Part shown: piece after piece, positions 2,196 through 52,291 of the stretch
Layout: the number at the start of each line of letters is the position of its first letter
Position numbering within the stretch: the first letter of the stretch is position 1
The notes under the pieces: generated by a model
What the model saw: only the letters and a program-made list of their open reading frames with translations
Databases searched by the model: none
What the model was told of the DNA's origin: nothing
Made by a program: the position numbers and the translations under genes
Assembly (NCBI GenBank): GCA_033558025.1
Contig: JAUCEF010000004.1
Span: 3,782,001 to 3,846,000 of the forward strand
DNA length: 64,000 bases
Source of the DNA: Phytophthora sp. 'mugwort'
Lineage: Eukaryota > Oomycota > Peronosporomycetes > Peronosporales > Peronosporaceae
Reading direction: 5' to 3'

Positions 2196-2429
2196 ATGAC
2201 GTTGAAACCGATACTGTTTAAGCCCTTATCACAGCCACAAGGGACAATATCGGAGGAGATGACGAAAAATTATAATAGGCGGACACTCATGGATTCGAGA
2301 GCAGAACGGGAAAGTGCAACGGGCAGGAAGTATCATCGAACCCGAGTATGCACGATAGCAGAGTTGGATATCCAGCGAACGGGAACTCGATGGAAGTCCA
2401 TCTACCGGAATAAGGAAGGCCTGCTGTGA

Positions 2430-3560
2430 TCTCGACATTAAGGCCTACGTTCAGATCTATGTATCGTGCATGAGGTACAAGTCGAAGACGGGACGCCAGT
2501 TCGGCAAGCTTCACCCGATTCCGTTACCACTTGTCTGCTAGAAAGTGGTTTCAACGGACTTCATCAGTCACCTGCCAGTGTCCGATGGTTTTGACGCTAT
2601 TATCGTGTAGTTGACAAGCTGTCTAAGCGACCTGTCTATTTTCTAACCCATACCACAGCAATAGCGGAAGGCACGGCCATGCTGTTCTTTAACCATGTCG
2701 TCCGGCACTAAGCCATTCCATCGACTATCATCTCGAATCGTGACCCAAAGTTCACGTCCAAATTTTGGACAGCGCTGGTTTAGCTGGATGAAGACTAAAT
2801 CAGCAATGACGACGGCTCACCAAGCACAGGCATGTCGGCAAACTCAACGTCAAAACAGGACACTCGAAGACTCAATGCGATGCGGCATGTCGTACCATAG
2901 CGACGACCGCAATGAACATCTGCCTATGATCGAGTATGCACACGCTACGCTTGTGTCTAGTTCCTCGAAGCTACCACCCTTCTTCGTCGATGCGTCTCGA
3001 TTCGTTCAGCATCGGCAAAAGGTGATCAAATTCTCGGGTAATAATTTGTTGGACGCACAAGCGGCTCAGAAGAAGTTCTACCGATAATCGCCGAGTAGAC
3101 AATCCGTTCAAGGTTGGTGACTTTGCGATACTCAACGCAGGGCTTGAATATCTCTCATGCGACTGCGGAAACAACGCTGCGTTCGCGCAAGTTTATTCCG
3201 AGATTCGTCGTCCCGTACACTTCCGTACAGCTTCAAGGTAACATAGCGCTGCTGGATTTGCCTGCAAACGTGAAGCACATCAGTCCACGCTTCAACGTCG
3301 ACAAGCTCAAGGCATACACCAGCAAACCGACAGCTTAAAGGAAGAGTGATTCCCAAGTCGACTCTTGCGAACTTCGACGACGAAGGCGAACCGCTGAGGT
3401 TCTGATGAAGAAATGCACTGCAATCGTCAACCTGAGTACCTCATGAAATGACACGGATTGTCGCAACAACAAAAACATGGGAACGCGAGCGAGGCATTAA
3501 ACATGTCAGCCACTGGCAGGAATTACTCAAGACCTTCGCCAGCGCACTCGGCCGGCTCGA
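2430..3560 (+). mobile_element. Ty3/gypsy retrotransposon fragment: integrase core, linker and chromodomain
   Basis: Joined over several frames, the translation gives an integrase zinc-binding tail (CMRYKSKTGR), the catalytic start VSTDFISHLPVSDGFDAIIV, then a second block with SNRDPKFTSKFW around 2700-2780. After it come FKVGDFAILNAG and a DLPANVKHISPRFNVDKLKAY linker near 3250-3320, typical of the gypsy integrase C-terminus. A chromodomain remnant follows at about 3450-3540 (TWERERGIKHVSHWQELL). Stops and frameshifts interrupt it repeatedly. No LTRs, protease or reverse transcriptase were recognised, so it is a 3' pol fragment. Confidence 0.75.
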
Positions 3561-3994
3561 GATTAGTGGAATTCTCCTTCGTAAAGGTTTACGGTACTGT
3601 TCATTGCATAGAGGGGCCACGGTACTTTCAGCTTCAACGTTGACGGCTTCAATGTTCAAGATACCGAGGCTCACTCAAGTGGGCTGGGTAATGATCCGCA
3701 GATACAAAAGCACAACAACACGCTATCATCAGTTGGATCCGCGCACAGAGAGCACAAGTCGTCACCTGCATACTCGCGACGATTGTGCAAGGACTCGCTA
3801 CGGTGAGCCACAGTCAACCGCGGCATGTTTCAAAACGCGCGCCGCCAGAGCCCCCTTAGGTAGACCGATAGCACAGCAAACAGATAAGCCAATTCAATTC
3901 AGTTTCCGATATACCTTCCCAACAACAAGTTTCATCACAAGTATTACACTATGATATACGGTACTGAAATGTCATAGACTGCGTAATTCCTGCT

Positions 3995-4190
3995 GAGCAG
4001 ATCACACGGTTGGGGGTCAGCTTGTCGAATTCGAAAGTGAGGAGTATTTAGAGAAGTTGGGCGTTTTTGGCTGGGAGATGTTTTATCGATACACTAAACC
4101 GGTATTGTACAGTACTGGTATTATTGTGAAAATATCATATTTAATTTTCCAATAACCAAATATTTTAGTTTACAATATCGCTACAATAGC
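3995..4190 (+). repeat. Copy 1 of a ~190 bp direct repeat (Harbinger-type end)
   Basis: This block is closely similar, in the same orientation, to 8945-9150. Shared stretches include TGTCGAATTCGAAAGTGAGG, AGAAGTTGGGCGTTTTT and TACTGGTATTATTGTGAAA. In the right-hand copy it forms the 5' end of a Harbinger-like transposase reading leftwards, so this copy is probably the broken-off end of a second element. Confidence 0.7.
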
Positions 4191-4217
4191 GGTTTTCAGT
4201 TAACCATTCTTTCAAAC

Positions 4218-4275
4218 GATGAGTCTAAGGAATGAGACTCATCACTTGAAGGAATGAGCCTCCGGAGGCTCATTC
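4218..4275. repeat. Two adjacent hairpins, one a perfect 24 bp palindrome
   Basis: Positions 4218-4226 and 4235-4243 are exact inverted repeats of 9 bp with an 8 bp loop. Directly after, 4252-4275 is a perfect palindrome with no loop (half-site GAATGAGCCTCC). Both stems contain ATGAG/CTCAT cores, so the two structures are related. They lie just beyond the direct-repeat block and before the Myb/SANT pseudogene, which suggests a transposon end or a protein-binding array. Confidence 0.8.
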
Positions 4276-4403
4276 TACGCGCTTTTTGGGGTTGCTAAGA
4301 GGCTCCCTCGTTCGCCAATCACAAACCTCCTCAAAGTGATTGCCTCATGTTTCAAAGGATATCGATTTTACTGAACCCCGCAGTTCACTTACAAAAGGAA
4401 ACC

Positions 4404-5285
4404 ATGCCTTCTCGGAAGCAAGCCAAGACGCGCGGGAAAGGGCCTCGAAGAAGAAGACCCTGATGCACCCGACGCGGGTTCAACTCGATGGCATAAACAC
4501 GTGGATAAAGCTAAATTAATATCTCGCCAGCTATCTCGGTGTATCAACGGCTGGAAAGGGCATAATCCATGGGCTGGTGTAACTAACCTGTCCAGGTTTG
4601 CGCGCATGGCATTGTTTACGACTACTCGAAGAGAACGACCATGCAGACCCACGACACAGGATGAAATGGGACAAGGAAACTTACCAAAGCCGCTGGAGCT
4701 CGCAGTTCAGACGGTACAAAACTACTCGTGCTCCCAAAATGAACAGACAGGATTCGGATCACCGACGAGATGATAATTGACGTCCGGATTGAAGACTTGG
4801 TTGAAAACGCGTGCCCATTTTACGAGCGAATGGAGGCTATATTTTCGAAGCAGGCGTACGTCGACCAGTGTCTCAACTGCATGCACCATATCTCAGTGAC
4901 GATGGTGACATTGAGGCAGATATTAAAGACGAGTGCTTCAGAGCGCCCCTTTCCGGAACGCATGAACGCGATACAGATTACCATGAGTTTTTTTTCGGAT
5001 TATCGTGAGAGGATGGAGGCTGGTGGCAACAGCGATAGTGATGAGATTGCCTTTAGCTTTAGTGGAGAAGCTGGAATTGACGGATTGGCTACGGTTGACA
5101 ATGAAATCGTTGCCGAGGCAATTTCCAACTCGGCTGCAATAACGTTTTGCAGGAAGATCCGAGAAGCCCCAAAAGGCGTTCTGAAGACGTTGCTCCAACG
5201 ACTATCACTTCAGTTCGTCGATCACTCAGCGATCTGCTCAATGCTAGCAACCGGCCGATTTATTTTGGGCTCCCACGGCAAATGA
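4404..5285 (+). pseudogene. Myb/SANT-like DNA-binding protein remnant, probably a transposon accessory gene
   Basis: A start at 4404 reads MPSRKQAKTRGKG and then needs a frame change to continue as DPDAPDAGSTRW...DKAKLISRQLSRCINGWKG, resembling the helix of oomycete Myb/SANT-like proteins. Further on come WDKETYQSRW and an open stretch at 4770-5285 beginning DEMIIDVRIEDLVENA..FYERMEAIF, a familiar continuation of this family. At least two frameshifts break it. PIF/Harbinger elements often carry such a Myb-like gene beside the transposase, and a Harbinger-like transposase lies at 7500-9042, but the pairing is inferred. Confidence 0.55.
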
Positions 5286-42322: not shown

Positions 42323-44913
42323 CTACATATTAAGCACGACTGGGTGTCCACCCAGAAGCGACGGAGTGAGAGCTGCGCCCACGGCGGCATCGGCAGCCGT
42401 TTGCAAGTGCAATTGCGACGGTTGGTCCAGGCGTCGCTGTAAAAACCGTTGAAGCAGCTCATTGCGCACTAACGCGTTGCCTGTGCCGATCATCCTGTCG
42501 TCAGGCAAGCAAAGCGATCAGTTAATACTCGAGCTAATTGGAGGCAGAATGCAAGGCAAGAGAATACACCTACGGTTGCACGGGCACTAAGGGCTGCAGC
42601 TCCGAGGGGATCATGGCGAAGAGGTTGTCCACGAGACCACGGGACAGCGCGGCGCTGATATCGCCCATGCTCCAGTTGTTCATCCGCAGCTTCAAGATGC
42701 TGCCAGTGGCGTTGGGGTCTGCACGCTCGCCGTTGAGCGTGGGCACGAACGTGAGCATTGTGTCCTGGTGTTGTACTCCCAGACTGATCAAGCGGGCGTA
42801 AACCTCGGCTTCGCGTTGCGCAGTCTGCTCTTCGTTGCAGTCCTTAGAAGCTGGAGCGAGCCCCATCTCCTCGGTCCATTGCTGCCACTGCTGCACCAGC
42901 CACGCGAACGTATTACCGCTGCATGAACACAAAAGTGATTAGTGAATTGAAGCAGAAGCGTAGGGAAGAAATGTTAAAAACGAACCCAGAAAGCGACGCC
43001 GCCACGCCCAAGAAACGGTCTTCGAATAGGAACGGCCGCACTTCAAAGCTCGAGTTGTCCTGACTTTCAGCCACGTTTTCCGAGCTTGAAGACAGCTTCG
43101 CAACGTCTGCACCAGTCAGTACCATGGCTATCTGTGCCGACGTGCCAATGTTTACCACTTTTAGGATCAAAAGCAAAGAGGTAGCATAACGTTAGTCGCA
43201 GTGAGTAATACGCTGTGATACAAGCAACGTACGCGTTAAACCGGACTCGCTATCCGGCTGCGACTGCCGCTTGGACAGAGCGGCCAGCACGGAGCACGGA
43301 TGGTCACCCATCGGGACGTACACGGGCTTATTGACGGGCAGTCCGAAGCCAGCGTAGCCTGCAGAGCTGTGACCAATGCAAGTGCCCGGCTTCATCACAG
43401 TAGGGAGCATCGAGGACGGAATTCGCAGTGCGCGCAACACTCTTGGGTCCCAGCTCTGGGTTTGCAGATGAAGACCTCCCCAACTGTGAGCATCAGTAGT
43501 GTCCATAAACGTCTCGCTAGGAAGCGTATGACCACACAAAACGAAAGACACCAAGTCATGAATTGTTCCACACGCGTCCATGCCCACCAACGTACGCGGA
43601 GAGTTTTCCAATGCGTATGCGAAAGAAGCGAGGCCGTATCCAGCAGCAATGCGACTGGACGGTGCAGTATTGCCCGTCGTTTTAACGAGAGCAATCTTTT
43701 CCCGGCACTTGTCCAAGTACGAAGACGTACAGCGCTGGTCCTGCCACGTGATGAGCTCGCTCCACACGGGCTCGTAAGTGTCATCATCTTCATGGATCCG
43801 ATGTCCTTCCGTCGCTAGCAATCGTTCCGCTGCTTCGTGGACAGCGCGACTACACCACCACACGATGCCGTGCATTTGACCACAGATTCCGATCGAAACG
43901 ACGCGCTGCCTCGCCGCCTCTGGCAGCAAATTCACGGCGCGCTGAACTGCCAAAAGCACCTGCTCCACATTCTGCACGCCGATGGTATTCTTGACAGTGT
44001 CTTCTCCTGGTCGGGTCGATACGATCACATCGATGAGAGAAACGTTGGCCATGGCAACAGTCTGACCGCCATTCGCTTTCACTAGGACGCACTTAATGGC
44101 CGTAGTGCCGATATCCAGTCCGAATAGCAACGGGCTATCGTCATCTAGCTCGTATTCGTATGAACTGGGCTGCAACGTAGCAGTCTGCAGCTTCCTCGAG
44201 GGCGGTATGGGCTCATTCGACTGCATCGCAGATGCGCTGGAACTTGTCGCTGTAGTTGAACTGGCGCTCGATGTAGTCGTCGTCGTACTGGACCGCGTCG
44301 CTCCTGTGCCTGCTACTGCCTGTGCGAATCCGTGTCGCTCCACGTACCTCTGACAGAGCCTCGCGAGTGCCGCTTGTCCGCTCTCGGCGCTCTTCTTGTC
44401 TGCCATGTAACTCTCGAGCCATTGCGCGTGGTTCTGTCTGATGTAGTCGATCATGTGGGATGACGTCATCTCTCTCCTTTCTCGCCGTCCCTCCTCCAAG
44501 AATGCGCTAAGCTCCCGCCCGAAAGGAAGAATCTCGCGGCGACCCGAGCGACCAATAGACTTCCTGGTTTCCGGGCCCTCAAAGCTGTTGATCTTCTCGG
44601 CGTCATCCAGCCAATGGCGCAGTGTGCGACGCGGCACGCCCTCCATCCGGCAGACCTCGCGCACTCCCGCGACCTGCGCCAGCGCGATGAGCTCGCGCTT
44701 TTTCTTGACCGAGTAATTGGAGCGGTGCTTGATACGTCGTCCGGTCGAGTCTGAACTGACTTCGGGCGCGTCTCCTGTTGCCCCTGTTGACGCGATCGTG
44801 GTCAACACTACATCGGCAGATAGTACGCCACTTCCGCTCGCTCCTGAAACTCCGTTTAGCGCTGGAGACGCAGCGATACTGGCGCTAGTCGCTGCCGCGG
44901 ATGCCGCCTCCAT
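42323..44913 (-). CDS. Transposase-type HTH domains fused to a sedoheptulokinase-like FGGY kinase, copy A
   Basis: Four exons (44913-43233, 43157-42986, 42918-42574, 42494-42323; introns 75, 67 and 79 bp) encode 789 residues. Residues about 59-105 form a psq/pogo-type helix-turn-helix (NYSVKKKRELIALAQVAGVR.. RRTLRHWLDD), and 115-195 a second, Tc5/CENP-B-like one. A Ser/Thr linker leads to a full FGGY kinase from about 264: FGLDIGTTAIKCVLV, GICGQMHGIVWW, WQDQRC (catalytic-type Asp), DAHSWGG, MGDHPCSVLAAL, NIGTSAQIAMVL, SGGNTFAWL and GTGNALVRN. QMHG with WQDQRC and the order of blocks point to sedoheptulokinase, which phosphorylates sedoheptulose beside the pentose phosphate pathway. The DNA-binding half suggests nuclear action. 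Both halves lie in one long uninterrupted first exon. Confidence 0.88.
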
Positions 44914-45051
44914 GCTCGCTTCACTGCAATGATGGGGAAGTATTTCCTTACATCGGATTGGTAGAAATTAAAAAGTGTGTTCATAGGGTGCGCCACACGA
45001 AACGAATCTTATAATCGAGGCTCAGTTTTATATTCGCGGGGTTGATCCTCA
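44914..45051. promoter_or_regulatory. Bidirectional promoter of the two HTH-kinase genes
   Basis: Only 138 bp separate the two start codons. A TTTTATATT stretch lies near 45026-45034, close to the right-hand start. The region is the obvious candidate binding site if either fusion protein regulates its own locus. Confidence 0.6.
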
Positions 45052-47448
45052 ATGACGACGCGGCGCAGCTACCCAGCGGCATTCAAGCTGTCGGTGGTGC
45101 GTGAGCTGACGGAGGGTGCGTCGCCGCCTTCAGTGCGCACACTGGCGCAACGCCATGGGGTGACACCGTCCATGGTTCGCAAATGGCTCAGCAACCGGTC
45201 GGAGCTGGAGGCGGCAGTGGCGCTGGACGGCAGCGGCTCGGGACGGCAGCGCAAACTCGGCAGCGGGCGTCGCCCCAACGCGGCGATCGACGCGGCGCTG
45301 CTGCAGTGGGTCAAGATCCAGCGACAAGTCGGCGGTGGCCTCACGGACCGGGAGATGCAGGAGCAGGCGCGAGTTATCGCTGAGGCGCAGGGCGTCCCGA
45401 ACTTCCACGCGTCCAACGGATACATCTACAGCTTCAAGAACAGGAACAAACTGTCGACGACTTCGAGTGCCATGAGCGGCAGTAAGAGGCAGAAGGTGGG
45501 AACGACAGGAGTGACTGTACAGGTGAGTCAGGAGGTGGCAACCCAAACCGTCGAGAGAGACTGTATGTTCGGTATCGACATTGGCCTCAAGAACGTCAAG
45601 TGTGCGCTAGTGTGCGCAACCACCGGAAACATTCTGGCCACGTCCAGCGCATCCATCCAACATGACGCTAATTTGCAGGAGAGCGAACAGGCCGTGGCGA
45701 ATATTCTCGCAACTGTGCTCAGTGCAGTGCAGGCGCTGCCGACGTCGTTGAGACGAAGTATCCGCTCGATTGGCATCTGTGGAGTGGTGAGTTTGTAGCT
45801 GGTAGTTTTGTGGTGGGATACTGGGGGCTTATATCGTGTGTGTCTATGTGTAGATGCACGGGATCGTGTGGTGGCGTTGCGGTGCGATTCGACAGGCGAT
45901 GTGTGAGCTGCTGTCCGGAAGAGGAGAGCCCGGCACGGCCTCGGCCAAGAGCTGGCCGTGGAGCATGTACATCACGTTCTTGGACCAGCGCTGTACGCCA
46001 ACATTGCTGACCGAGTGGAGGGCGAAGATTCAACTGGCTAACACGGCAGCCAGTGTGACCTCGTTTGGCATCGAAGCTGTTGATGTCTGTGCCTCGACGT
46101 CGCCCATTGCGTCCGGATACGGACTCGCTACGTTTGCATATATGATGGAGAGGCAGCCGCACGAGATTGTGAGCTTTGACGCATGTGGAACCATTCAAGA
46201 TTTCATTGCGTTTGCGCTTTGTGGACATTCTACACCGGCTCAGAATTGCATGGACGTCACTGATGCCTTTAGCTGGGGTGGCTTCGATATCAACACAAAG
46301 ACGTGGAATCCACATACGTACGTCTAACGCTTTCAGGTCTCCAGTTTCCTTACCATAGTTAACTTTAACGTGTTTTTTTTATTTAATATGTTTTCAGTGT
46401 GCAGGCACTTGGTCTTCCAGTACAAATGTTGCCCACGGTGAAGGCTCCTGGTGCAATTATTGGCCAGAGTTCGGAGGTGGCAGCAGTTCTAGGCTTGCCT
46501 AACGGGAAACCAGTATACCTTGCGATGGGCGATCACCCGTGTGCAGTCATGACGACGATGGCTCAGACGCACGGACCTGCAGACCTCAACCTCTCGCGCA
46601 CTTCAGGTACGTGAAATTCCAGCAATAGAGTGCGATGACCTTTTCATCTGACGATATTGGATGAACACAGTCTTAAGCATTGGCTCAGCATCACAAATGG
46701 CGATGGTTTTGACCGAGGAAGACGCGACGCAGCTGAAACAATCTCGTGGTAGCTGCTCGCTGAGCTTTGAAGTGAGACCATTTTTGTCGGAGAATTGGTA
46801 TTTAGGTGTCGCTGGGTCATTATCAGGGTACGTTTGATAGGAAAAGTCTACATTCATTTACGACCGATATTCTAACAGAGAGGAGAGTTCTTGAATCCCA
46901 GCGGCAACATCTTTGCGTGGTTCGTGAAACAATGTCAAGCATGGAGCCGACAACTGGCAGTGGACCCAACAGCTGAGCACCTAGCGGATGATGCAACGTA
47001 TGCACGGTTAATTTCTCTCGGAGGCACGAAACTTGACACCGATCTCAAGTTCTCACCGACGTTGTATGGAGAGTGGGCATCTCCTGACGTGAGAGGCAGC
47101 ATTGAGCAACTACGCATAAACAACTGGTCCCTCGGTGATATCAGCGCTGCTATCTGTCGTGGTCTGGTCGACAATATATTTTCTATGGTTCCCGGGGACC
47201 TGCGGACAGATCTGCTTCAGCAACCGTACGTCTTATTCCTTCCTGGAGGTACGATGCCAGCTAATGTAACTTTTTTTTGCACTTGTATGGATGGTAGAAT
47301 GATCGCAACTGGCAATGCATTGGTGCGCAATAATCTTCTACAACATTTTCTTAGACAGAAACTTGCACACCCGTCTCAGCTTTCAATCCAGAGTACGGCA
47401 GATGCAGCAGTAGGTGTGGCCTTCATCCCGTCGCTACTGCAGAAATGA
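45052..47448 (+). CDS. Transposase-type HTH domains fused to a sedoheptulokinase-like kinase, copy B with altered motifs
   Basis: Six exons (45052-45786, 45854-46317, 46398-46606, 46671-46827, 46902-47225, 47298-47448) encode 679 residues. The start MTTRRSYPAAFKLSVVRELTEG with VTPSMVRKWLSNR is a psq-type helix-turn-helix. Residues 70-135 (DAALLQWVKIQRQ.. TDREMQEQARVIAEAQ.. NFHASNGYIYSFKNR) are a clear Tc5/CENP-B HTH, so the bipartite pogo DNA-binding unit is complete. The kinase begins near 172, but GT in the phosphate loop is replaced (FGIDIGLKNVKC), QMHG is VMHG at a splice junction, and the WQDQR position reads FLDQR. The catalytic-type Asp, DAFSWGG, MGDHPCAV, SGGNIF and TGNALVRN remain. 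It may be a weakened kinase or a sugar sensor. The last acceptors were placed by matching copy A. Confidence 0.87.
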
Positions 47449-47502: not shown

Positions 47503-49014
47503 TCACGAAGCCAGCGCATTTCTGGGCAAAACGTTGCGTCTCTGGAGGTCGCGTGCAATCAGATCAATACGCACACCCATATTGTAAAGCTCCGTGGACG
47601 CCGACTGCGTAGACTCGGAAGTTCCTGCGCGATGTAGCGCTACGACGGTGTTGTCTTTACGACTTAGCACGGGCGAACCGGAGGAGCCAGGCTCTGTGTC
47701 GGCATTGTACCAAACTGTTGGCTGGAGGTCGCTTGGTTCGCTGTGGCGACGAAGAAACTCCAAGGAATCGAGCGAGTTTGACGTAAACACCTCAATTACC
47801 GCGGGTTTTCCATCTTTCATTGCAGCAATCTCTTTAGGCTCACCACGTGGATGTTGTGGGATGTAGATGGCTTCACCGTCCACAGGACCGGCAGCTCGAA
47901 GGCGCAAAGAGCCATAACGCTTCGTCAAATTCGTCGCTGAATTGTTCGGGAGCACTTGCAACAGGGCGTAGTCCAGCTCTGGGTTTTCCGCGATCACTGC
48001 GACTCGTGTGGCTTCTACCATGCCAACGTTTTGTCTTATGAATCCAGTCTCTCGACACGATTTGGCCTCGGCCATGAAACCTACTACAGCCTCCACGATT
48101 CGTCCAGTCTTGTCTAGTGGGGAAGTATACGGCCAATAATGGCTCATAGTGTTCGACTGGAGCTCAGTGCTGGCTGCCTCTTCTTCAGTCGAATCTTGGA
48201 CAGTGCACTCGACTACAGCAGCATCTTTCATGCAGTGGTGATTGGTGATCAAGTGGTTACTTCGTCCTATAAGCCAACCCGTGCAGAACGTCCAGCTTGT
48301 TGCTTGTTCTGATCCACGTAAAACTTGCTCCTGAGTGGTACGGATCATCAGCCTTGCTACAGCTCGAGCTTTGCCATACATTTTGGGTTGGGTTTTCCGA
48401 TAGCAGACGGCTTCTTTGGCTTCATCCTTAGCTCCCACAGTGCTTTCCGTATCGATTCCAACAAGTGAAGTACCAGACACGGTTGTGACGTAGGCATACG
48501 AGTCCAGGATCACTGCGGGATTCTCGTGCTGATTGGAAACGTTTGGGAGCATAAGCGTCGGAATACTCGGGAAATATTCCACTACGATCGTGTCCCCTTG
48601 CACCAAGAACGGGTGTGTCCGCAGCAGCAGCGAATGTGGTGACTTAGTGCTGCTCGCGAGCTCCTGAACGAGTGAAGTAGCGTTCGCTGAAGTGACAGTG
48701 ACAGACATTGAACTGTTAGGATCATGCACAAGCACTTTGTCTCCTGGTAACAACTTGAGTTGCTGGAAGTTTACAGCGACAAAAGCTGCACGAGGCTGGA
48801 CGAGCTGAAGCACTTGTGGGAGTTTTCTGCCGTTCGGTGAGAGGCTCCATTCGTCTTTAACAAGAGGGTGAAGCACGACGATGGCGTCGATAGTCTGCAA
48901 AGGTCCGCGGAATCTAGTCACTCGGTGTCTCGACGAGCTCAAATTCACGTAAACTCGCACAGGAAGGAGGGACAAGAGCGACAGCAGCAGCAGTGCACAC
49001 ACCGACACGTGCAT
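47503..49014 (-). CDS. Secreted trypsin-like serine protease
   Basis: This single-exon gene encodes 503 residues. A signal peptide is visible at 1-22 (CALLLLSLLSLLPVRVYV). The N-terminal third is a beta-rich region of unknown kind. The C-terminal half is a trypsin-fold domain with the catalytic triad His about 259 (LITNHHC), Asp about 347 (ENPELDYALLQV) and Ser about 443 (TEPGSSGSPV). The GTSLVG and GKPAVIEVF contexts resemble the bacterial-like Trypsin_2/V8 group more than animal trypsins. It would act outside the cell or in the secretory pathway. It converges on the HTH-kinase copy B gene with only 54 bp between stop codons. Confidence 0.85.
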   Translation of the reverse strand: MHVSVCALLLLSLLSLLPVRVYVNLSSSRHRVTRFRGPLQTIDAIVVLHPLVKDEWSLSPNGRKLPQVLQLVQPRAAFVAVNFQQLKLLPGDKVLVHDPNSSMSVTVTSANATSLVQELASSTKSPHSLLLRTHPFLVQGDTIVVEYFPSIPTLMLPNVSNQHENPAVILDSYAYVTTVSGTSLVGIDTESTVGAKDEAKEAVCYRKTQPKMYGKARAVARLMIRTTQEQVLRGSEQATSWTFCTGWLIGRSNHLITNHHCMKDAAVVECTVQDSTEEEAASTELQSNTMSHYWPYTSPLDKTGRIVEAVVGFMAEAKSCRETGFIRQNVGMVEATRVAVIAENPELDYALLQVLPNNSATNLTKRYGSLRLRAAGPVDGEAIYIPQHPRGEPKEIAAMKDGKPAVIEVFTSNSLDSLEFLRRHSEPSDLQPTVWYNADTEPGSSGSPVLSRKDNTVVALHRAGTSESTQSASTELYNMGVRIDLIARDLQRRNVLPRNALAS

Positions 49015-50253: not shown

Positions 50254-50859
50254 CGTCGCCAGTGGTGCGCGACGTGCAACGCGTCAGCGCCCGCGACCGT
50301 CACGCTCAGTAGGCTGAGCACCACGCGCCACTGGCCTTTGCTCGGCATGGCCGATGCTGACCGACTATCCGGCGATAGTCGAGCGAGTCTCAGGATATCA
50401 GATTTGCGGAAATGGTATAAAAACCAGTAGATTAGGCGCAATGCGGTTCGCAAAATTCGTTCGTTTACATACAGGGAGGATTGATCACTAACTTGGAGCT
50501 ATCGCGCTAATAGATATGGTCATCAGTTTTCATGTGTAGGATTTTCCTTTGAACGCTGCAATTTTTCGAATGGCAGCATTAAACTCTAACTGAGAAGATA
50601 TTTAATAATACCAGCGTTAGTGGGCAAACAAGTTGCTGCCAATGGCGATCGTCCAGCGACCCGCTTCAACTTACCGGTCTGATACCGGTCGAATCAGGAA
50701 AGATCGCAAGAAAAGGAATCCTGGACGGCCGCCAGGGCAGCAGAGCGAATCCTTTGCCCAAGCCACAAAAGCGGAAAGGACGCGTGAGACTCAGGACGGA
50801 CGTCGACGACTGAAACTCCGCCCCCCCCAGTTAGCCGATAAGAGACTACCGCTATCGTC
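50254..50859. other. Intergenic stretch before the MGCC protein gene
   Basis: Apart from the possible upstream part of the small membrane protein (to 50352), no gene was recognised. A C-run of eight is at 50821-50828, just before the next start. Confidence 0.45.
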
Positions 50860-52291
50860 ATGGGCTGCTGCTTGTCCAAAGAGGACGATCGCTTCGATAG
50901 CGGCAACGAGGCGCTGCTGCCCAAGGGCAGGAACGGCAACAAGCGAGTGTGCGTGCCATGAGATATCATTGTATACCGCCGTTTTAGTCTGCTTGGCGTT
51001 GACTGACTCGTCCATGTTGCTCCCTGCTACAGAGAAAAGTCCATTGAGGCCACGAAAGACGGAGCTAATGGCAGCTACAAGTCGCCATCGGCCGTCGTTG
51101 CCGCCGGAGACGCCAGCTCCAAGGTGCCGGCCAAGCCGCAGCCGACTAAGAAACCCGTGGAGAGCGTCGACTTATTGGGACTCAACGATAAACCGCCGAC
51201 GCCGCTGGCTGCACCAATCATCAAGGCTCCCTCGCCACCTAAACCGGAACCTGCCGTACAAGCATCAACTCCGGTAGAAACTCCGGTCGCAAAGGCAGAG
51301 TCACCTCCCGAACCAGCGCCAAAGGAACCGTCGCCACCGATACCGGAACAGACTTCGCCACCCAAACCGGAAGAAACAGCGGCACTCAAACCGGAGGAAA
51401 AAGATCCGTCCTCGCCCCAACCAGCAGAACCGTCATTGCTCAACCCGGAAGAAACAGAGACACCCAAACCAGAAGAAATAGTAGCGGAAGAACCGTCAAC
51501 GCCCAAACCGGAAGAAACAGTGGCGGAAGAATCGTCCCCACCCAAACCAGAAGAACCGTCACTGCTGAAGCCGGAAGAAACCGTGGAACCCAAAGTGGAA
51601 GAAGTTCTTCAAGAACCGTCCCCGCCCACACCGGCAGAACCATCATCGCCCAAACAGGAAGAAACAGTGGCACCCAAACCAGAAGAACCGTCACTGCTGA
51701 AGCCGGAAGAAACCGTGGAACCCAAAGTGGAAGAAGTTCTTCAAGAACCGTCCCCGCCCACATCGGCAGAACCATCATCGCCCAAACAGGAAGAAACAGT
51801 GGCACCCAAACCGGAAGAAATGCTACCGCCCCAACCGGAAGAAACACCGGCATCCGAACCGGCAGAAACTCCACCGGAGCCGACACAGCCTTCGCCACCC
51901 AAGGAGTCAGAAAAGTCTCCGAAGACGTCGCCCAAGAAGCCGTCGGACGCAGAAGAGGACAATATGATGGCGTCGGCGTTCACATCCGTGTCCGTCAAGG
52001 CAGAAGATGTCGACAACGATGACGACAACGACAATGACGACGATAATGACAATGATGGGGACGACAACGATAATGGTGACAACGATAATGGTGACAATGA
52101 AGGCGATAATGACGATGCCAAGGACCAGCCTAAGGAACCCAAGCCCAAGAAGATCACCCCCACGAAGAAGTCCAAGAAGAAACGAAAGGTACGTTGCCAC
52201 CGCGTCAATTACTCTGAGCTTGTTGCTTGTGAAGCATGATCCTCGTCTCACGCCGCAATCACGTTTGATCTCCCAGAAAGGAAAGAAGTAG
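50860..52291 (+). CDS. MGCC-anchored Pro/Glu-rich repeat protein with acidic and basic C-terminus
   Basis: Exons 50860-50948, 51033-52188 and 52277-52291 (introns 84 and 88 bp) encode 419 residues. The start MGCCLSKEDDRFDSGNEALL fits N-myristoylation of Gly2 with palmitoylation of Cys3 and Cys4, so membrane attachment is likely. The body from about 80 to 300 is built of degenerate PKPEE(T/P) units. A 132 bp (44-residue) direct duplication lies at 51541-51672 and 51673-51804. After VSVKAED comes an Asp/Asn run of about 40 residues, then a Lys-rich end (KSKKKRKKGKK). The final exon supplies only four codons plus stop, completing the basic tail. No enzyme domain is present; a scaffold or cell-surface linker is possible. 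Confidence 0.75.
51541..51804 (+). repeat. Tandem 132 bp in-frame duplication within the MGCC gene
   Basis: Bases 51541-51672 and 51673-51804 are near identical and encode 44 residues each (PKPEEPSLLKPEETVEPKVE and so on). A further partial unit follows. High DNA identity indicates a recent duplication. Confidence 0.85.

Follow-up and report, generated by a model that had tools for sequence, protein, structure and literature searches.

Organisation of the locus and gene structure

The window analysed here is a 64,000-nt contig stretch of Phytophthora sp. 'mugwort' (JAUCEF010000004.1), and all coordinates are window-based. Two divergent genes with intact ORFs lie head to head in it, and the predicted product of each joins an N-terminal pair of helix-turn-helix (HTH) units to a sedoheptulokinase-like FGGY kinase. 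The head-to-head pair and its 138 bp separation had been proposed in an earlier, sequence-only reading, and these coordinates proved exact. The main features are as follows.

42323..44913, minus strand: left gene, HTH block and sedoheptulokinase-like FGGY kinase, 789 aa, read from the ATG at 44913 to the stop at 42323
44913-43233, 43157-42986, 42918-42574, 42494-42323, minus strand: the four exons of the left gene, introns GT-AG
44914..45051, no strand assigned: spacer between the start codons, 138 bp, candidate shared promoter
45052..47448, plus strand: right gene, CENP-B-type HTH block and FGGY kinase with altered nucleotide motifs, 679 aa, ATG at 45052 and stop at 47448 in the predicted model
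45052-45786, 45854-46317, 46398-46606, 46671-46827, 46902-47225, 47298-47448, plus strand: the six exons of the right gene, introns GT-AG

Exon 1 of each gene carries one continuous ORF from the HTH block through the linker into the beginning of the kinase, and no intron interrupts the fusion junction.

The sequence just downstream of the kinase in Lagenidium matches window positions 50857-50949 (64.5% over 31 aa, E 2e-8). Three further neighbour queries gave no window match below E 0.09, and the start of the Lagenidium gene downstream of the kinase was not found by the motif tried. This single neighbour match is only a hint that the pair occupies the ancestral kinase locus.

The N-terminal HTH blocks

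The HTH blocks were delimited as follows.

44584..44727, minus strand: left HTH1, aa 63-110, from a transposase-family match, the AlphaFold2 model of an orthologue and sub-threshold Pfam matches
44314..44538, minus strand: left HTH2, aa 126-200, four helices in the orthologue model, transposase-family match
44128..44313, minus strand: left low-complexity linker, aa 201-262, variable between species
45052..45231, plus strand: right HTH1, aa 1-60, HTH_Tnp_1 / BrkDBD
45268..45459, plus strand: right HTH2, aa 73-136, HTH_Tnp_Tc5 (CENPB type)

Two units of the pogo/CENP-B kind had been claimed for each protein. For the right gene this holds: HTH_Tnp_1, BrkDBD and HTH_Tnp_Tc5 all passed their Pfam cut-offs at the N-terminus, the last (CENPB-type) with 45.2 bits against 22.2, and the human CENP-B DNA-binding domain 1hlv, presumably the structure of a DNA complex, matches the two-HTH block over aa 12-132 (E 4.6e-5). 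For the left gene it holds by kinship to transposases, the Pfam scores being below threshold. HTH1 reached 19.9 bits with HTH_23 (cut-off 24.6) and 18.3 with HTH_Tnp_1 (24.1), no Pfam HTH model matched HTH2, and as regards the CENP-B/pogo type there was no HTH_Tnp_Tc5 match and CENP-B_N scored 11.6 bits against 21.2. Two HTH fragments of the related DDE_1 transposase family of this genome likewise gave no Pfam match at E 0.01. The left block aligns with this family over 132 columns, and in the orthologue AlphaFold2 model its units are mostly confident helical bundles (10-residue confidence means of 79-90 over most of their length, 60 and 69 at the ends), with pLDDT below 50 in the linker region 190-247.

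Mean identity to the window protein across 15 left orthologues was highest in HTH1 (aa 61-110, 90%), the best-conserved segment of the protein. It was 79% in HTH2, 75-78% in the kinase, 42% in the N-terminal tail and 34% in the linker (13 of 15 counted). By these figures the left HTH block is no less conserved than the enzyme.

Kinase domains and active-site motifs

The motifs MHGIVWW, DQRC, SWGG, MGDHPC and GNALVRN, quoted in the sequence-only reading, are present in both predicted proteins. FGGY_N was recognised in left exon 1 with 64.5 bits (Pfam cut-off 28.8). On the right, the window exons scanned singly fell below the cut-off, and the full-length P. infestans orthologue P0033 scored 67.5 bits. 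A two-domain kinase fold was also predicted through orthologues of both proteins: for each of the models P0003 and P0032 the best four Foldseek hits were kinases of xylulose and gluconate, with E from 1.5e-20 to 4.8e-19 and target-normalised TM of 0.64-0.73. The motifs that bear on activity are these.

44098..44115, minus strand: left ATP phosphate-1 motif DIGTTA, intact
43294..43311, minus strand: left catalytic-Asp motif MGDHPC
45577..45594, plus strand: right phosphate-1 motif DIGLKN, replacing DIGTT[AS]
45778..45862, plus strand: right CGVMHG, replacing CGQMHG, split by the intron 45787-45853
46525..46542, plus strand: right catalytic-Asp motif MGDHPC, retained
46676..46696, plus strand: right phosphate-2 motif SIGSASQ, replacing NIGTSAQ

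A complete FGGY kinase had been described in each protein, which fits the left gene and fails for the right, where the nucleotide-binding motifs are altered. The left gene keeps D-x-G-T-T, MHG, GDHP and NIGTSAQ; across the left rows GT[TS] and GDHP were each found in 27/27 and NxGTSAQ in 24/27 (3 gapped). In the right rows GLK replaces GTT in 17/19 (2 gapped), CGV replaces CGQ in 16/19 (3 gapped) and the phosphate-2 GT has become GS in 13/19 (5 gapped or nearly so, 1 with other letters), with the catalytic-Asp motif MGDHPC kept in 16/19. GT[TS] was present in all 32 comparison rows from insects and other sources and in 14 of the 15 unfused oomycete rows, the lone exception, P0050, being a model that lacks the region. 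P0027, P0066, P0067, P0100-P0108 and P0143 were excluded from this tally.

With its full set of FGGY catalytic motifs, the left protein is probably an active enzyme. The right kinase, whose mean identity to its orthologues is 79-89%, is a conserved pseudokinase candidate and probably not an active enzyme, although its activity could survive by compensation, since the catalytic Asp is retained. In the FGGY kinase SePSK, changing the Thr of its D-x-G-T (T11A) left D-ribulose activity much lower (PMC4880283).

A profile search from the kinase reaches insect proteins annotated as sedoheptulokinase, and among NCBIfam models only XylB and other FGGY models matched, far below cut-off; the name sedoheptulokinase denotes sequence kinship to annotated proteins. 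Genome searches, within their limits, found no unfused sedoheptulokinase in this genome.

Distribution of the fusion

The same architecture was sought in other oomycetes and was found: HTH-bearing relatives occur in Phytophthora for both genes and, for the left gene, in downy mildews too. The HTH block was matched (blastp, E up to 1e-3) in 24/26 close relatives of the left gene (20/26 over at least 120 residues) and in 16/18 of the right gene (10/18 over at least 120 residues), and in 0/99 other fetched proteins; fetched relatives from Pythiales, Saprolegniales and insects matched neither block. No right-gene relative from downy mildews was among the matches listed (about 8,000 scored candidates per search), so the pair may not be universally needed.

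Orthologues without the HTH region had been named as a sign that the fusion might be a local accident. Within Peronosporaceae the fusion is conserved, and we read the HTH-less orthologues outside the family as dating the fusion and not as refuting it. Four database models inside the family (P0024, P0026, P0042 and P0044) do lack the HTH region and may be gene-calling errors, alternative transcripts or real losses, and in several further clade models it is incomplete.

Origin of the two HTH blocks

The kinase tree comprised 41 rows: the 2 window genes, 16 of the 26 left and 8 of the 18 right database relatives, and further proteins from other oomycetes (11) and from insects (4). The 17 left rows and the 9 right rows each formed a clade (100/100 for both), the two were joined at 97/97, and unfused Pythiales kinases fell outside; by this tree the left and right kinases are sister paralogues.

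The HTH blocks have another history. Relatives of the left block form a DDE_1 transposon family of about 1.8 kb, TA-flanked and present in the same genome, whose terminal repeat CAC[AC]GACGGAC gave 43 genome matches against 0 in the reversed control. The HTH tree of 23 rows (6 of 16 left, 5 of 7 right, 6 of 11 transposon and 5 of 5 CENPB-type blocks, plus L044) placed the left blocks with the transposon rows at 100/99 and the right block outside that family. The AU test rejected a single left and right clade (delta lnL 55.6, p-AU 1.9e-36) in a sample whose transposon rows had been chosen because they resembled the left block and whose CENPB-type rows because they resembled the right one, and in which six rows were flagged as long-branched, with a tool warning that long branches meet. 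Local alignment of the window blocks scored 53 for left against right, 238 for left against transposon L017 and 138 for right against L029, and the profile match between the two blocks was weak (80.5% probability, 25% identity, 89 columns). By tree placement and alignment, the two HTH blocks derive from two different transposase lineages. The capture of a pogo domain put forward earlier is accordingly retained as far as transposase-type two-HTH blocks are concerned, and not as a single event.

The intergenic spacer

Action on pogo-derived sites, also suggested in that reading, was not borne out at this locus. Even with 3 mismatches allowed over 21 bases, the related transposon's terminal repeat had no match anywhere in the 64 kb, and binding to transposon ends here was rejected on that result; a search between 44880 and 45080 for direct or inverted repeats of at least 8 bases gave none. 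In PMC11267843, microarray DNA motifs are given for 5 of 7 CENPB-type proteins of P. infestans, GTTTAAC and GTTAAC being termed palindromes there. GTTTAAC, GTTAAC and TAACA are absent from the 138 bp spacer, and these motifs were rejected as spacer sites.

Proposed mechanism and alternative explanations

The fusions, their conservation, the separate HTH origins and the motif changes are demonstrated at the level of sequence, and on them we build a proposal whose functional elements are putative, from DNA binding, the sensing of a ligand and the substrate to the loss of kinase activity, the shared promoter, the regulation and its target genes. In the Peronosporaceae stem lineage, a single sedoheptulokinase-like gene would have been duplicated head to head, and each copy would have gained a 5' two-HTH DNA-binding domain from a different transposase lineage. 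The left protein would be an enzyme that also binds DNA. The right one would be kinase-dead, having lost the residues that hold the ATP phosphates and kept the catalytic Asp and MHG, and would still sense sugar or nucleotide. The kinase domain would sense the ligand and mediate oligomerisation and the HTH pair would recognise DNA, both genes being transcribed from the common 138 bp divergent promoter. The DNA-binding pieces from different transposon families on the two copies, with conserved ATP-binding-site residues missing from one copy, suggest a sugar-sensing regulator pair. Taken whole, a metabolite-responsive transcription-factor pair of enzyme and pseudoenzyme is the reading towards which we lean slightly.

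The most serious competitor, which we nevertheless consider unlikely, is that the HTH blocks are modules for oligomerisation, nuclear localisation or other binding and regulate no genes, the kinases being ordinary, with the left one active and the right one its regulatory subunit. The good conservation of the kinase domains themselves on both sides, and the failure to find a target site in the spacer, suit such an arrangement. It sits poorly with left HTH1 being the most conserved segment of its protein and with the match of the right block to CENP-B, and the different HTH blocks carried by the two paralogues point to DNA binding as a shared, selected property. Still less probable is that the ancestor captured one HTH block, followed by divergence or by later gene conversion with a transposon. 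The sister relationship of the kinases, the common two-HTH layout and the weak profile match between the blocks would agree with this history, which is rejected by the AU test, with the caveats of row choice and long branches, and is opposed by the far lower left-right alignment score; moreover, had one block been replaced later, the two would still differ in origin.

That the blocks silence related transposons by binding their ends, with the kinase incidental, seems to us very improbable. The left-block relatives do form a transposon family with recognisable terminal repeats, but the left block is just 39% identical to the family transposase, which leaves shared binding sites uncertain, the kinase is conserved with intact motifs in the left gene, and the right block groups apart from that family. 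Least credible of all is a merging of separate HTH and kinase genes during prediction: the clade models with a missing or partial HTH region could be cited for it, and we reject it because the exon-1 ORF is unbroken across the junction in both genes and the same architecture is predicted across many species. The earlier argument that a fusion within an uninterrupted first exon is no gene-model artefact is upheld for this genome on these grounds.

Comparison with known systems and significance

There is precedent both for regulators created from transposase-derived DNA-binding domains and for enzymes with a second role as regulators. Compared with SHPK/CARKL, the eukaryotic FGGY sedoheptulokinase, the left kinase has like motifs and its profile reaches annotated insect proteins, whereas the fetched insect and other oomycete relatives match neither HTH block and the right copy has altered ATP motifs. 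The pair resembles CENP-B and pogo-transposase proteins in its two consecutive HTH units, the right block matching 1hlv and the left the DDE_1 family, but carries a sugar kinase in place of the transposase catalytic domain. Yeast Gal1/Gal3 are GHMP kinases without a DNA-binding domain, and bacterial ROK repressors join an HTH to a sugar-kinase fold of a different family from FGGY. The logic proposed here would recall the former in setting an active kinase beside a kinase-dead sensing paralogue, and the latter in fusing an HTH to a sugar-kinase fold. In the nematode F-box-HTH family (PMC12062965), a captured Tc1/mariner HTH on an unrelated host domain was likewise retained in a clade; the oomycete pair differs in having a metabolic enzyme as fusion partner and in bringing HTH blocks of two lineages together in one duplicated locus.

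Two apparently bacterial proteins, P0029 (N-terminal MerR) and P0127 (C-terminal HTH_3), also fuse an HTH to a sedoheptulokinase-like kinase. They share the kinase type and a DNA-binding domain with the oomycete pair, but the HTH families are unrelated and each is one protein. These single fusions hint that the coupling of DNA and kinase may recur in evolution. A contig search with the MerR-kinase query gave six loci, five matching only within residues 1-102 and one only within 127-566; for P0127 the longest contig was 2,305 bases.

Among the papers listed by our literature searches there was no other regulator pair based on an FGGY kinase, and no metabolic kinase with HTH blocks of two transposase origins in one divergent pair. 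With a probability a little short of even, a duplicated sugar kinase was independently wired to DNA twice, giving an enzyme-transcription factor and a kinase-dead sister responding to the metabolite pool that both would share. In that case, as no unfused sedoheptulokinase was found in this genome, the chemistry of the pentose phosphates would be physically coupled to gene control. If the two proteins bind DNA in a sugar-dependent manner, the locus would be a natural case of repeated domain capture and would link central carbon metabolism directly to gene control in many plant pathogens.

Structure of the gene pair

The two fusion genes lie head to head, with start codons 138 bp apart, in an assembly of 86 Mb and 154 contigs. 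Judged by their protein relatives, the source belongs within Phytophthora or next to it. Their spliced models, with GT-AG introns, are as follows.

42323..44913 (-), left gene: four exons, product of 789 aa
45052..47448 (+), right gene: six exons, product of 679 aa

The sequence-only reading had placed the fusion inside an uninterrupted first exon in both copies, and this was confirmed: exon 1 contains both helix-turn-helix (HTH) units, the linker and the first part of the kinase, so that the junction can be read straight from the genomic frame. A 503 aa ORF adjoining the right gene at 47503-49014 (-) has the look, judged from its sequence, of a secreted trypsin-like protease. Beyond it, 50857-50949 (+) matched the sequence following the kinase in the Lagenidium protein P0060 with 64.5% identity across 31 aa (E 2e-8), which hints that the two genes may occupy the ancestral kinase locus.

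Identity to the window proteins was compared domain by domain. For the left protein and 15 orthologues, HTH1 averaged 90% identity, HTH2 79% and the kinase 75-78%, with lower means in the variable segments: 42% for the N-terminal tail and 34% for the linker, the linker value counting 13 of the 15 orthologues. For the right protein and seven orthologues, the means were 79% in HTH1 (five counted), 71% in HTH2, 46% in the linker and 79-89% in the kinase. The HTH blocks are genuine, retained parts of the proteins, flanked by loose linkers. AlphaFold2 models of orthologues agreed with this pattern: that of the left orthologue P0003 (mean pLDDT 73) had two helical bundles, one spanning 61-101 and the other 124-185, with low confidence over 190-247, and that of the right orthologue P0032 (mean pLDDT 82) had helices at 9-60 and 77-132. 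Foldseek grouped both models with FGGY kinases.

Distribution of the fusion

A search with the left protein returned 31 proteins, including 26 close relatives (P0001-P0026) of 57-80% identity, 24 of them from Phytophthora, Nothophytophthora, Peronospora, Peronosclerospora, Plasmopara and Bremia. The same architecture occurs in other oomycetes, the HTH block being matched in part or whole at E 1e-3 in 24/26 left and 16/18 right relatives, and over at least 120 residues in 20/26 and 10/18, respectively. The close relatives whose models lack the block are P0024, P0026, P0042 and P0044. Right-gene relatives carrying it came from Phytophthora species, together with P0040; no downy mildew right-gene relative was among the matches listed in searches scoring about 8,000 candidates each. 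Adjacent locus numbers suggest that the pair, orientation aside, stays together in P. ramorum, P. fragariae, P. oleae and P. kernoviae.

Neither HTH block was matched at E 1e-3 in any of the other 99 fetched proteins, and the kinases fetched from Pythium, Globisporangium, Lagenidium, Saprolegnia, Aphanomyces and Thraustotheca gave no match to either. Different N-terminal extensions were present on the kinases of P. brassicae (P0050) and G. splendens (P0057).

An FGGY_N search of the genome found four places: the left gene and contigs C13, C5 and C9 (strong match). The C13 ORF looks XYLB-like. The right gene, split into short exons, was overlooked by this search, and another kinase divided in the same way could escape too. 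A genome search with the left protein, in which 76 of 136 candidates were scored, listed 72 matches; the kinase matches were to the pair only and the remainder fell in the HTH part. No separate unfused sedoheptulokinase was found among the FGGY_N and left-protein matches listed, from which short-exon kinases may be missing.

No description of this HTH-kinase fusion was found in literature on sedoheptulokinase with oomycete or DNA-binding domain, nor in the titles and abstract openings of papers on FGGY with Phytophthora or helix-turn-helix. None of six terms sought occurs in the main text of PMC2705460, which surveyed domain fusions in Phytophthora in 2009. Two apparently bacterial proteins combine a sedoheptulokinase-like kinase with an N-terminal MerR domain (P0029) or a C-terminal HTH_3 domain (P0127). 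Each is a single protein; they suggest that this kinase type may have been joined to DNA-binding domains repeatedly and separately.

Separate origins of the HTH blocks

The left and right genes came together (97/97) in the maximum-likelihood kinase tree (41 rows), and the unfused Pythiales branched outside them. Among the outer oomycete groups the tree did not fix an order, and long branches there drew a warning from the tool. The left HTH block aligned with a transposon family of the same genome over 132 columns (38% identity, 99.8% probability), and with the right block over only 89 columns (25% identity, 80.5% probability). Left and transposon rows formed one side of a branch (100/99) in the HTH tree (23 rows), and constraining the left and right blocks together cost 55.6 log-likelihood units (p-AU 1.9e-36). 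The right block grouped with CENPB-type proteins and matched the human CENP-B DNA-binding domain structure (1hlv). Row sampling followed resemblance to each block, and long branches affect some rows, so the exact sister groups are unsure. Taken at the sequence level, these results argue strongly that the two HTH blocks had separate origins, different from the history of the kinase.

Members of the transposon family related to the left block
L017, L018, L020, L023, L024, L027: degenerate, DDE_1, about 1.8 kb

The copies compared are 88-93% alike, with 1.5-1.8 kb covered in most pairs. DDE_1 was detected in L018 (E 4.4e-13), one of four downstream fragments scanned; the Pfam scan found nothing in the other three or in two HTH fragments. 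Terminal repeats CAC[AC]GACGGAC[AG]GAAT... stand at the transposon ends, with TA on their outer side in the majority of six copies inspected, and the pattern had 43 matches genome-wide versus 0 for the reversed control. Another locus, L030 (G000:C7:8473900-8482300), carries at 2308-4617 (-) an open ORF of 770 aa with HTH_Tnp_Tc5, DDE_1 and a glutamine-rich C-terminal part, possibly a further domesticated pogo-like host gene.

Altered ATP motifs of the right kinase

In the phosphate-1 motif, D-x-G-L-K replaces D-x-G-T-T in 17/19 right rows (two gapped). CGVMHG replaces CGQMHG in 16/19 (three gapped), and in phosphate-2, G-S replaces G-T in 13/19; of the remaining six, five are gapped or almost so and one has other residues. 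GT[TS] was kept in 27/27 left rows, 14/15 unfused oomycete rows and all 32 insect and further rows; among 39 more distant rows, bacterial ones included, the first position was T in 36 and S in three. The right gene retains the first Asp and MHG, and the catalytic-Asp motif MGDHPC is present in 16/19 rows. In SePSK, mutations at D8, T11 and D221 each reduced activity strongly (PMC4880283). On the simplest reading, the right kinase would be a fold that still binds ligand and is unable to transfer phosphate.

Proposed function

The spacer between the start codons, from which both genes would be expressed, contained no repeat and no known motif, which counts against reading the pair as regulators. 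FGGY kinases are often dimers or tetramers, and such a kinase-driven assembly would bring two HTH pairs together and place them on palindromic DNA. CENPB-type proteins of P. infestans bound the palindromes GTTTAAC and GTTAAC (PMC11267843). Because of this oligomer geometry and palindrome binding, we favour a pair of metabolite-responsive regulators, conjectural from DNA binding onward, in which the left protein would be enzyme and regulator in one and the right protein a kinase-dead sensor.
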